A DNA stretch of 64,000 nucleotides, taken from the NCBI GenBank assembly GCA_937918935.1, contig CAKZSI010000074.1:1-64000 (forward strand). The letters are read 5' to 3'. Positions 51,049 to 56,600 of this stretch are shown here, piece after piece. The notes beneath the pieces were generated by a model, which saw only the letters and a program-made list of their open reading frames with translations, was not told where the DNA came from and searched no databases. How positions within the stretch are numbered: the stretch's first letter is position 1; every line of letters begins with the position of its first letter. The DNA comes from an uncultured Chloroflexales bacterium. Its GTDB lineage: Bacteria > Chloroflexota > Chloroflexia > Chloroflexales > Chloroflexaceae. Position numbers and translations under genes: made by a program.

Positions 51049-51376
51049 GGCGCCTCCACAGGTGGACAGAGGTTCAGAGGGCTGTCAGGCAGGGTTCATG
51101 ACGACAGCCCGCCGGGCCCGGCGGGGGCGTCGGGAGAACGCTACCACACGCATTATACTATGCCGGAGGTGCGGAGATGTCGAGGTGTGGGGGTGTAACG
51201 GCGCTCCTTCATGCGCGGTCTGCTGGCTGGCTCGATGAAGGAAGGGGTAATGTTCAATTCAAGATCTTATTTCGCTGCGCGGCTGGTTGAGGCAGGTGTG
51301 CAGAGCGCAGCTCGCGGCATGCGGAAAGGCGCGGGGAGGCTACGCCTCGCCGCGCCTTTCTCATCTGCCCCCGCCG
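51049..51376. other. apt promoter region and nif-operon terminator
   Basis: 328 bases. Holds the apt -10 box (TATAAT, minus, 51157-51152) and the hairpin at 51324-51360. No gene seen. Confidence 0.55.
51324..51360 (-). terminator. Hairpin ending the nif operon
   Basis: GAAAGGCGCGGGGAGGC-TAC-GCCTCGCCGCGCCTTTC, 16 of 17 pairs, 16 bases after the stop codon of the 70-aa gene. No T-run, so termination would rely on hairpin strength or Rho. Confidence 0.65.
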
Positions 51377-51589
51377 TTACTCTTTGTCGTCCTCAATCGA
51401 CACCAGGCCATACACCGTTCCGGCGTACACGATGCTGCTGACCAGCGGATGGAGTTGCACACCGGGCTGCACGCGGCGGTAAATGTAGCGTGGCCCGTCT
51501 GCAGGTTCGACGCAGAGGTATTTGCCATGGATCTGGAAGTTGACCGTTTCGGGGCCGTCGGCCAGGTCATCGTCGAATGTATTGCTCAT
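51377..51589 (-). CDS. Unknown 70-aa protein at the end of the nif operon
   Basis: I do not recognise it. The sequence begins MSNTFDDDLADGPETVNFQI and continues with HGKYLCVEPADGPRYIYRRV, then QPGVQLHPLVSSIVYAGTVY and ends IEDDKE; it is acidic and beta-rich, with one Cys and no metal-binding pattern. GGAGGA lies about 8 bases before ATG 51589, and nifK ends 45 bases upstream, with a GC hairpin between (51603-51633). The hairpin at 51324-51360 follows. It is not a VnfG/AnfG delta subunit (those are about 110-130 aa and lie between D and K). Confidence 0.72.
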   Translation of the reverse strand: MSNTFDDDLADGPETVNFQIHGKYLCVEPADGPRYIYRRVQPGVQLHPLVSSIVYAGTVYGLVSIEDDKE

Positions 51590-51634
51590 AGGCCTGTCCT
51601 CCTCCGGGGGGCGGGGGTCCGCTGCCCGCCCCGG

Positions 51635-53059
51635 TCAAATGCCCTTGCCGTTACCATTGGGCAGGCTGATCGGCACGTAACTCGGTCCCTCGACGCCCCG
51701 CTCCACCAGCGTGTTGCTGACGATGGAACTGGCCCGCCGTTCGAAGATCAGGTTGGTGATCTCGTCAACCAGCGCAGTCGAGCCGTTGTAGCCGACGATA
51801 CTGCGGCGATGGTAGCCGAAGCGATCCTCCACCGGGAACCCGACTCGCAGCAGGGGGATGCCTTCCGCGTCGGCGATGAACTTGCCCTTCGAGTGGCCGA
51901 TCAGCAGGTCCACCGGATGGGCCTTGATCCGCTTGTGCAGTTCGTGCAGATCGCCCTTGAGGATGATCTCGCTCTCGACGCCCAGTTCCTCGGTGAGTTC
52001 GACCATGTGCTCGGCCCAGGGCATGGTGTCGGCAGCGGTCAGGACGTAGGCCGGCGTCATACCCATCTCGGCTACCAGCCCCACCAGACCCTCCAGCAGA
52101 TCGGGGTCGCCGTAGAGCGCCACCCGCAGCCCGGTGGTGAACATGTGCGTGTCTACCAGGGCGTCGAGGAGCCGGGCGCGTTCTACCTGCAAGGCTTCGG
52201 GAATAACGTGGTCGGTGATCTCTACCAGCGTGTCCACGAAGGCGTCGGTGTTGGCCAGGCCGATGGGCATGGTCAGCACGTGTGCCGGAACGCCATAGCG
52301 GCGCTCGTAGATGCGGGCCGCTTCGCCGCCGATGTAGCGTTGCAGGGCGATCGTTGCCAGCGATTTGGAGGAACTGCGCAGTTCCTCGACCGTAGTGCCC
52401 CCACGGGCGAAGTGTGGGCGCGGTTCGTAGTAGCCGCCATCGAGGGTCTCCGAGTAGTCAGTGATCCACAGACCGTGCAGCCCCATCTCGCGCAGGATGT
52501 GCTTCAGTTCGCAGATGTCGCCCGGGTTGACCCAGCCGGGGATCATATTGATCTTGCCGTTGGTCTCGCCCTTCTTCTTGCGCCGGTCGGGCAGGTTGTT
52601 GGCGATTTCCTTGAGGAAGTTGTCGAAGCCCGTGGTATGGTTGCCGATATAGGACGGGGTCTTAACCGGGAGGATGGGGATGGTCACCTCGGGATGCTGC
52701 TCGAGAAACTCGTCAATGATCCCTGGAATATCATCGCCGATCGTCTCAGAGAGGCAGGTTGAGCAGACCATAATCATCGTGGGATGGTAGCGCTCCCAGA
52801 TGTTCTTGAGCGCGGCCAGCAGGTTGCTCTTGCCGCCATAGACGGTAGTCTTTTCGGTGAGCGAGCTGGTGGCCACCTCGACCGGTTCGCGGAAGTGGCG
52901 GGCCATCTGATGGCGCGGGTAGGTGGCGCAGCCCTGTGAGCCATGGTTGATGGTAATCGCCCCGTGGATGCCGTAATTGGCCAGCATCGCCCCGATCGGC
53001 GCGCACGAGCGCGTCGGATTAATGGCGACTGCCCGGTCCTGTGTCGTTATCACGCTCAT
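51635..53059 (-). CDS. nifK: Nitrogenase MoFe-type protein beta subunit
   Basis: 474-aa beta subunit. P-cluster cysteines are in place: C19 (RSCAPIGAM), C44 (HGSQGCATYPRH) and C102 (CSTCLSETIGDD), with the Ser of TPSYIGNHTTGFDN. It lacks the N-terminal extension of classical NifK (A. vinelandii NifK is about 523 aa), as do VnfK and AnfK. The start codon follows the nifD stop directly (TAAATG), so D and K are translated together. It pairs with NifD as the alpha2beta2 catalytic component. Confidence 0.95.
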   Translation of the reverse strand: MSVITTQDRAVAINPTRSCAPIGAMLANYGIHGAITINHGSQGCATYPRHQMARHFREPVEVATSSLTEKTTVYGGKSNLLAALKNIWERYHPTMIMVCSTCLSETIGDDIPGIIDEFLEQHPEVTIPILPVKTPSYIGNHTTGFDNFLKEIANNLPDRRKKKGETNGKINMIPGWVNPGDICELKHILREMGLHGLWITDYSETLDGGYYEPRPHFARGGTTVEELRSSSKSLATIALQRYIGGEAARIYERRYGVPAHVLTMPIGLANTDAFVDTLVEITDHVIPEALQVERARLLDALVDTHMFTTGLRVALYGDPDLLEGLVGLVAEMGMTPAYVLTAADTMPWAEHMVELTEELGVESEIILKGDLHELHKRIKAHPVDLLIGHSKGKFIADAEGIPLLRVGFPVEDRFGYHRRSIVGYNGSTALVDEITNLIFERRASSIVSNTLVERGVEGPSYVPISLPNGNGKGI

Positions 53060-54487
53060 TTATTCGACCTCCTCGAACCCGTGGCTCGTGTGGTGCGCTA
53101 CCGGCGCGGGCCGGGCGCGGCTTCGCAGGGTCTTCCAGATGGGGGCGTGCAGGGCCTTGTCAATGTCGCGGGCAAAGTTGACCATGCCGACAAAGCCGGC
53201 ATACGGACCGGTGTCGTAGGTGTGGCCGTTGACGAACGGCACGCCCATCTTGTAAGCTACGTACTTCTCCTTATTGCCCGAGATGAACAGGTCAGGGCGC
53301 CGCTCGCGCAAGATCTCCTCGATCTCCGGCCCGTTCGGGTTGTCTACCACCAGGGCGCCTTCTTTGAGCTGGCGGAAGATCTTCTGGTAGTCGTCGTCGT
53401 GGCCGAAGGTGGTGGCGGCGGTCATGGTTTCCATGCCCAGCTCGCGCAGCAGTTCGATCCAGTGCCATACCCGCGGCCCGCCCTGGTAGATGAAGACCGT
53501 CTTGCCCTGCAGACGCTGGCGGTAATAATCCAGTCCGGGTTGGATGCGCGCCAGTTCGCGCTCGATCACTTCCTCGGCCTGCGCTTCGAGGCCGAAGAAG
53601 GCCGCGGTGTCGCGCAGGGCCTGCGACATGTTCTTAATGCCCCACAGGGTGACATTAATGTAGGGTGTGCCGTACTTATCGCGCATCATGTCGGCGATAT
53701 AGGTCGCTGAGCGCTGGCAGTGGACGACGTTGAGCGGGGCCTTGTGCATGATCTTCAGCTCATCCACCGAGACGTTGCCGGTGAAGCGGGTGAGGATCTT
53801 GAGGCCGACCGCCTCGAAGAGGTACTCAAAGGTGCGCAGGTCGTTCTTGATGTTGTAGTCGCCGATGATGTTGATTGACCGGCTGAAGTCGCCCTCCGGC
53901 TCGACCGAGCCGACGAGCTGGCGGAAGATCGTCTCGTTGCCAACGTGGTGGCCCATAGACTGGCTGACGCCGCGGAAGCCTTCGCACTCGAAGAAGACTA
54001 CCGGCTTGCCGATGAGTTCCTCAGCCTGTTTGGCTACATCGCGGCCATCGTCGCCGATCAGCGCCGTTGAGCAGGTGTTGTAGATGAAGACGGCCCTGGC
54101 GTCGGGGAACTCACGGCTGGCCTCGATGATGCACTGGAGCAGCTTCTTTTCGCCGCCGAAGACGATGTTGGTCTCGTTCATATCGGAGACGAAGGTGTAC
54201 TTGATGTGGAAATCGCTATCGGCGAGGTGTGGCCGGTAGCCCCAGGAGAAGAACGCGCAGCCGATGGGGCCGTGGGTGAGCTGGATGGCGTCTTTGACCG
54301 GGCCGCCGACCACGCCGCGGCAGCCAGCGTAGGTGCAGCCGCGCTCGGTCATGTCACCGGGAGTGGTGGGAACGTTGCTGGCGATGAAACAGCCTGATCC
54401 GTCGCCACGCTGGCACCCTCCGTCCGGTCCCTTGAGAGCGATGTGGATCGCTCGTTCAGGGAGGTTCTGATTGCACGTGAACTTCAT
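53060..54487 (-). CDS. nifD: Nitrogenase catalytic protein alpha subunit
   Basis: 475-aa alpha subunit. P-cluster ligands: C51 (RGCTYAGCRG), C77 (HGPIGCAFFS), C139 (YNTCSTALIGDD). Cofactor ligands: C257 (VVHCQRSATYIADM) and H422 (VNGHTYDTGPYAGF). Q176 and H180 of SQSMGHH (homocitrate/substrate side) are kept. The stretch GGPRVWHWIELL, the pattern FVNGHxYxxGPYxGFxGxVNxARD and the length are closer to VnfD/AnfD than to classical NifD. The start overlaps the nifB stop by four bases. No delta-subunit gene is present. Confidence 0.95.
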   Translation of the reverse strand: MKFTCNQNLPERAIHIALKGPDGGCQRGDGSGCFIASNVPTTPGDMTERGCTYAGCRGVVGGPVKDAIQLTHGPIGCAFFSWGYRPHLADSDFHIKYTFVSDMNETNIVFGGEKKLLQCIIEASREFPDARAVFIYNTCSTALIGDDGRDVAKQAEELIGKPVVFFECEGFRGVSQSMGHHVGNETIFRQLVGSVEPEGDFSRSINIIGDYNIKNDLRTFEYLFEAVGLKILTRFTGNVSVDELKIMHKAPLNVVHCQRSATYIADMMRDKYGTPYINVTLWGIKNMSQALRDTAAFFGLEAQAEEVIERELARIQPGLDYYRQRLQGKTVFIYQGGPRVWHWIELLRELGMETMTAATTFGHDDDYQKIFRQLKEGALVVDNPNGPEIEEILRERRPDLFISGNKEKYVAYKMGVPFVNGHTYDTGPYAGFVGMVNFARDIDKALHAPIWKTLRSRARPAPVAHHTSHGFEEVE

Positions 54488-55395
54488 ACGGCTTCTCCTT
54501 TGCGAGCCAGGAACCTGGGGATGCAGACGCGTTCACTCGGGCCACAGCCTTCCTCACCGGGGACGCCGATGGCGTCGGCGCGGCAGCGGGTGCAGTTGCG
54601 GAACTGATCAATGATTGACGCGCATGCGTTGCGAACCTGGTTGACCTGCTCAAGGGTTGGTTCAGGTAGATGGGCGAACTTCGCCAGGGGCAGCATCGGA
54701 ATGATGTTCATGATGTAGGCGCCGTTGTCTTTGACGGCACGGGCGATGGCGGGCATATGCTGGTCGTTGACGCCGGGGATCAGCACCGAGTTGACCTTGA
54801 CGACCATACCCCGCCATGCCGCCTCGCGTAGCCCTTCCATCTGGTTGTGGTGCAGCAGTTCAAAGGCGGCGCGGCCCCGGTAGGTTTTGCCCTTGTAACG
54901 CACGTACTCGTAGATCTGCTCGCCGATCGCCGGATCCACAGCATTGATGGTGATGGTGAGGGTGGTGATCCCGGCGCGCTCGATGGCGTCAATGCGATCG
55001 GGCAGCAGCAGGCCGTTGGTCGAGAGGCAGCGGATGAGCTGCGGAAACTCGTCGCGAGCGCGCTCGAAGGTGGCGAGGGTGGTCTCGTTGGCCAGGGCGT
55101 CGCCGGGGCCGGCCACGCCGAGCACCTTCAGGCGCGCGTCGCTGGCGATCGCCGCACGCACCGTGTCGAGGGCCTCGTCGGGCGAGATCACACGCATGGT
55201 GACGCCGGGGCGATTCTCGTTGGGGCAGGCGTACTTGCGAATGCAGTAGTTGCACTTGATATTGCAGCGCGGCGCCACCGGCACGTGGATGCGCCCGAAG
55301 CGAAAGTGGGCCGCGCGGCTGTAGCAGGGGTGGGTGTCGAGATCCACTCTGGGAACGCAACTACCGGCACAGCCTGCAGTGGGCTGAGTGTTCAT
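54484..55395 (-). CDS. nifB: Nitrogenase cofactor biosynthesis protein NifB (radical SAM only)
   Basis: 303-aa radical SAM enzyme with the CxxxCxxC cluster APRCNIKCNYC (C44, C48, C51), upstream HPCYSRAAH, then RKYACPNENRPGV, and a C-terminal FRNCTRCRADAIG Cys motif. NifB makes the NifB-co carbide cluster from two Fe4S4. There is no C-terminal NifX-like domain, so it is the short form. GGAGATC precedes ATG 55395. It lies between nifH and nifD, an order known from Roseiflexus. A family B hairpin lies between nifH and nifB. Confidence 0.95.
   Translation of the reverse strand: MNTQPTAGCAGSCVPRVDLDTHPCYSRAAHFRFGRIHVPVAPRCNIKCNYCIRKYACPNENRPGVTMRVISPDEALDTVRAAIASDARLKVLGVAGPGDALANETTLATFERARDEFPQLIRCLSTNGLLLPDRIDAIERAGITTLTITINAVDPAIGEQIYEYVRYKGKTYRGRAAFELLHHNQMEGLREAAWRGMVVKVNSVLIPGVNDQHMPAIARAVKDNGAYIMNIIPMLPLAKFAHLPEPTLEQVNQVRNACASIIDQFRNCTRCRADAIGVPGEEGCGPSERVCIPRFLARKGEAV

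Positions 55396-55532: not shown

Positions 55533-56600
<1,068 letters not shown>

Follow-up and report, generated by a model that had tools for sequence, protein, structure and literature searches.

A small acidic protein family encoded behind nifK in the nifHBDK operons of Chloroflexales

Introduction

Does the nifHBDK operon, a proposed model of early nitrogenase, contain only the four genes after which it is named? The question arises from a 64,000-nucleotide stretch of DNA from an uncultured Chloroflexales bacterium (contig CAKZSI010000074.1; the whole stretch is called the window here), in which a first-pass annotation placed a small gene, here orf70, behind nifK and suggested an accessory or protective role for it.

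Viridilinea was described as carrying nifHBDK without nifEN and nifV, and Roseiflexus and Oscillochloris as having a comparable cluster (PMC6346205). Roseiflexus genomes were said to encode just nifHBDK (PMC9241655). These NifEN-less nifHBDK nitrogenases were named the Clfx clade (PMC7216921), and it was suggested that the operon could bring nitrogen fixation to crops by a simple route (PMC11573651). The literature on nifHBDK and on Oscillochloris nifK, taken as main-text passages of mostly open papers, names no fifth gene. A conserved fifth gene would alter the assumed minimal gene set of the NifEN-less nitrogenase, and orf70 is probably such an overlooked gene, missing from the published gene lists.

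Results and discussion

The nifHBDK operon of the window

By Pfam and NCBIfam names, the operon has the order nifH-nifB-nifD-nifK with all genes on one strand (Table 1). The gene order and the absence of nifE are common to this operon and the NifEN-independent (Clfx) nifHBDK of Roseiflexus sp. RS-1, but the latter has four genes in the published lists whereas orf70 makes a fifth in the window. The NifD of the window carries R85 and H422, the residues named for Roseiflexus NifD. The conserved domain of NifH starts at residue 66 of the listed ORF, so the true start of nifH probably lies further inside.

Table 1. Position of the nifHBDK operon, orf70 and neighbouring elements in the window.
Feature	Position	Strand	Evidence
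nifH (within listed ORF, GTG start)	55533..56546	minus	TIGR01287 above cut-off, residues 66-336
nifB, short radical-SAM form	54484..55395	minus	TIGR01290 E 4e-95, slightly below cut-off
nifD, nitrogenase alpha subunit	53060..54487	minus	TIGR01862 above cut-off
nifK, nitrogenase beta subunit	51635..53059	minus	PF00148 E 3.7e-127; under NifK equivalog cut-off
nifK-orf70 intergenic gap, 45 nt, carries ribosome site GGAGGAGGA	51590..51634	minus	sequence, spacing, upstream sequence
orf70 (70 aa, acidic, beta-rich, probably new family), last gene of nifHBDK operon	51377..51589	minus	synteny and dN/dS
Long GC-rich hairpin 3' of orf70, no U-run	51324..51360	minus	fold z -3.2; stem score 14, 0/100 shuffles equal

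Relatives were compared in a set of 61 genomes that includes the window's own genome. With the NifE model, which speaks for nifE and not for nifN, no gene in the 61 genomes scored above the cut-off; in the genome of the window, the model matched NifD itself best. The earlier remark that the cluster lacks the usual accessory genes is thereby borne out for nifE. Extra nitrogenase-like component 1 genes, located apart from nifHBDK, matched the NifE model with E values of 1e-31 to 1e-34 (G005:C60, G032:C142 and G032:C1289).

Coding status of orf70

The ATG of orf70 occupies 51589-51587 and the stop codon ends at 51377; the coordinates given by the first-pass annotation were correct, and the strand, which it did not state, is minus. 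Its description of the product as a 70-aa acidic protein agrees with the pI of 4.55 (4.27-5.18 in all 27 members of the family), and both the 45-base distance from nifK and the ribosome site, located immediately 5' of the ATG and rated good, were confirmed.

A 70-codon ORF by itself means little here, since 116 ORFs of at least 50 aa overlap 16 kb of the GC-rich DNA of the window and chance ORFs as long as orf70 are frequent in such DNA. However, homologs were found in 27 of the 61 genomes at E <= 1e-3, weaker matches being discarded, and dN/dS ranged from 0.09 to 0.43, below 0.5 in all 14 pairs of relatives (NifK, 0.05-0.12 in the same pairs). The members are near-constant in length (67-82 aa in 26 members, the G006 fragment excluded) and have ribosome sites. 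By these sequence comparisons orf70 is judged to be a real gene under purifying selection, more than a chance ORF because of its homologs and this selection; a chance ORF is ruled out by conservation to near certainty. The family alignment A1 takes in the G006 fragment (45 aa) and the G056 member truncated at a contig end.

Distribution among relatives

Both orf70 and NifK were found in 27 of the 61 genomes, and together in 26. The remaining orf70 genome, G026, has orf70 and nifD near a contig end, so that nitrogenase genes occur in all 27. Counted by nifD/K, orf70 was present in 27 of the 28 genomes with these genes and in none of the 33 without, a count that includes shared ancestry and carries no species-tree correction. 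Presence or absence agreed with nif in 60 of 61 genomes; the sole exception (G045) has NifK without orf70, which may be due to an assembly gap, ten Ns standing 118 nt after the nifK stop. Within genus g5, G033 has neither orf70 nor NifK, and five other genomes (including G064) have both. By this pattern, the loss of orf70 appears concerted with the loss of nif even within one genus.

A profile search at class level revealed orf70 in 29 of 158 genomes, all belonging to families f1 and f4. In a phylum sample of 400 genomes, 16 had a convincing orf70 and 20 a NifK relative. Four genomes of this sample have NifK but no orf70 (G045, G085, G185 and G201), and the NifK of G185 and G201 is only about 40% identical. 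G085, which lies outside the order, has nifHBDK with no gap after nifK and lacks orf70; therefore orf70 appears from genome content to be typical of the NifEN-less nitrogenase, not universal. In G085, Mop, MoeA-like (by eye) and NifX-like genes follow nifHBDK in place of orf70 (L133:6841-9082). Two further candidates from the phylum (G300 and G389, E about 0.009) had internal stops and were rejected, and no relative was found in plasmid records at E <= 1.

Gene neighbourhood

nifK and orf70 lie on one contig in 25 of 29 genomes, and in all 25 orf70 is located 3' of nifK on the same strand (as, for example, in G042). The association with nitrogenase proposed earlier is strongly supported by this position; the opposite case, that no relative has a homolog beside nifK, was checked, and homologs were found there in 25 genomes. 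In the other four (G006, G010, G026 and G027), the two genes are on separate contigs or nifK was not found. orf70 is the immediate next gene in 23 of the 25 contiguous cases, and one cysteine desulfurase gene stands between in two (G011 and G017). Adjacent nifK and orf70 genes are separated by 31-268 nt; spacing and distance comparisons cover the 23 of 27 genomes with both genes on one contig, and G064 and G072 complete the 25. The inserted gene, a class-V aminotransferase (cysteine desulfurase-like), lies at L035:7216-8460 and L034:4057-5313.

orf70 keeps its place beside nifK while the other operon neighbours vary. In 7 of 29 loci orf70 is followed by molybdate-transport or Mop genes (Pfam naming) of the same orientation, a NifX-like gene lies 3' in one and a cysteine desulfurase gene 5' in three. 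These neighbours would fit a function of orf70 in molybdenum or cofactor supply, as a partner of molybdate uptake, Mop storage or NifB and not of NifDK. We consider this unlikely: most loci, including that of the window, have no mod or mop gene 3' (several contigs end soon), G085 has a Mop gene behind nifK yet no orf70, and the protein has no conserved metal ligands, since only L25, Y37, Y60 and L62 are invariant.

Protein family and predicted fold

The first-pass annotation called the protein unknown, and searches of Pfam, NCBIfam, PHROGs and PDB sequences indeed gave no family match and nothing above chance. A match to hemP (E 0.013) occurred in just one of the 27 members and was rejected as a weak single match. 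Besides the four invariant residues, G22, G57, I65 and E66 are nearly invariant. No Cys or His is invariant, and as C26 and H47 vary, metal binding by the protein is unlikely.

Two AlphaFold2 runs gave the same five strands with mean pLDDT of 78.9 and 74.5, from a shallow alignment of two sequences each, 77% identical. The predicted protein consists of a small sheet of five strands and an acidic, loose N-terminus; the strands fit the beta-rich character read earlier from the sequence. Foldseek found no match in the PDB at E <= 0.001, an absence that does not establish a new fold. The best VIA-align match, part of a WD40 domain (Z 4.6), was read as a common sheet arrangement.

The mean amino-acid distance among 23 genomes is 0.55 for orf70 and 0.21 for NifK, and the two sets of distances correlate (Mantel r 0.54, 0/2000 permutations). 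The fast divergence, together with the absence from G085, would suit a passenger gene that travels with the operon and has no role for nitrogenase. Against such a passenger stand the purifying selection, the presence and absence that track nif and the retention beside nifK while other neighbours change, and we regard it as very unlikely. The orf70 products probably make up a previously undescribed family of small accessory Nif proteins linked to the NifEN-independent nifHBDK operon.

Transcription and hairpins

From the nifK start to orf70, the minus strand showed no sigma-70-like site. Considering the short gap, the lack of a promoter-like site in this interval and a hairpin only 3' of orf70, co-transcription of nifK and orf70 is likely in the window. 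The first-pass annotation supposed that the hairpin behind the gene ends the operon; a strong hairpin is present there, but it has no U-run and is absent from the consensus terminator scan. It is probably a transcript end or stabiliser, as judged from its predicted stem.

Among 18 of the 27 genomes surveyed for hairpins, six have a strong one (0/100 shuffles as good) in the gap from nifK to orf70 and seven have one 3' of orf70. The gap hairpins (L076, L085, L079, L080, L042 and L084) belong to genera g5 and g11, and their sequences differ between genomes.

Post-translational protection or regulation of the finished nitrogenase, for example against oxygen, carbon monoxide or ammonium, has models in CowN and the Shethna-type proteins. 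The position of orf70 as a separate gene closing the operon, and its small acidic product, would suit such a role, and the strong gap hairpin in 6 of 18 relatives would make uncoupled expression possible. The Pfam and NCBIfam searches, however, related orf70 to none of the described families, and we think this role rather improbable.

Comparison with known small Nif proteins

NifT in Azotobacter and Klebsiella is encoded directly 3' of nifK, and NifT/FixU (PF06988) is, like orf70, a small nif protein (about 72 aa). None of the 27 orf70 members matched the NifT Pfam model at E <= 1, and the conserved residues are different. hhalign gave a probability of 0.2% with a NifT profile of only two sequences. 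The orf70 model had no significant fold match of any kind in the PDB. NifZ, NifW and further accessory proteins resemble orf70 in being small and encoded in nif clusters, but no Pfam or NCBIfam match connects them with it. NifW was covered through these models alone; for NifZ, no Pfam match occurred in the 27 members and hhalign gave a probability of 0.6% with a profile of two sequences. In engineered Synechocystis, removal of nifT was reported to lower activity more than tenfold (PMC5989072).

Possible role of orf70

According to PMC11573651, Roseiflexus NifH, NifB and apo-NifDK are enough to make the cofactor and reduce N2 in vitro. The reported biochemistry, for Roseiflexus only, has the cofactor built on apo-NifDK. 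The enzyme made without orf70 had immature P-clusters; its solubility was better with NifUS, and NafY was used at 48 C (PMC11573651). These effects leave room for a helper. The reconstitution without the orf70 protein makes a strict requirement of orf70 for cofactor synthesis unlikely, and it argues, together with the nifHBDK of G085, that the gene is not strictly essential.

Nearly all Chloroflexales genomes with a nifEN-less operon have orf70 behind the nif genes, which suggests that it is probably a dedicated helper. We therefore favour, at a probability of about 0.5, that its product is an accessory protein dedicated to the NifEN-less (Clfx-type) Mo nitrogenase and would help by binding NifDK, the partner and the action being our inference. 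The protein would act by binding rather than by catalysis or metal transport, and would most likely dock on NifDK or on apo-NifDK, which may also be the FeMo-co workbench in the Clfx lineage. Docking might keep NifDK soluble or ready to accept the cofactor and so aid assembly or stability. orf70 would then fill the position held by NifT, NafY or NifW in other diazotrophs. The fast divergence speaks against a NifDK helper, being more than expected of a tight, constant interface.

A more specific and doubtful possibility is a chaperone that holds apo-NifDK competent to build its own FeMo-co or to mature its P-clusters in vivo. If orf70 were such a missing fifth part of the pathway, its absence would account for the activity of the four-gene system being low and heterogeneous.

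Other observations at the nif loci

A second unnamed small family, OrfB, was found in the surveyed loci (L035:8689-9048, L034:3550-3858, L040:8041-8331 and L042:9855-10124). It lies 3' of orf70 in seven genomes and is also present in two without nif (G019 and G046). OrfB has weak similarity to the BPL_C domain and to nothing better, and a comparison with orf70 revealed no relation between the two. Three more distant NifK proteins (L035:5667-7082, L034:5367-6785 and L072:7304-8734) have a Cys- and Gly-rich C-terminal tail, and the NifK of the window is without it. At a contig end in G013, a second NifK fragment lies behind orf70 (L043:2-196), with 83% identity over 65 aa.
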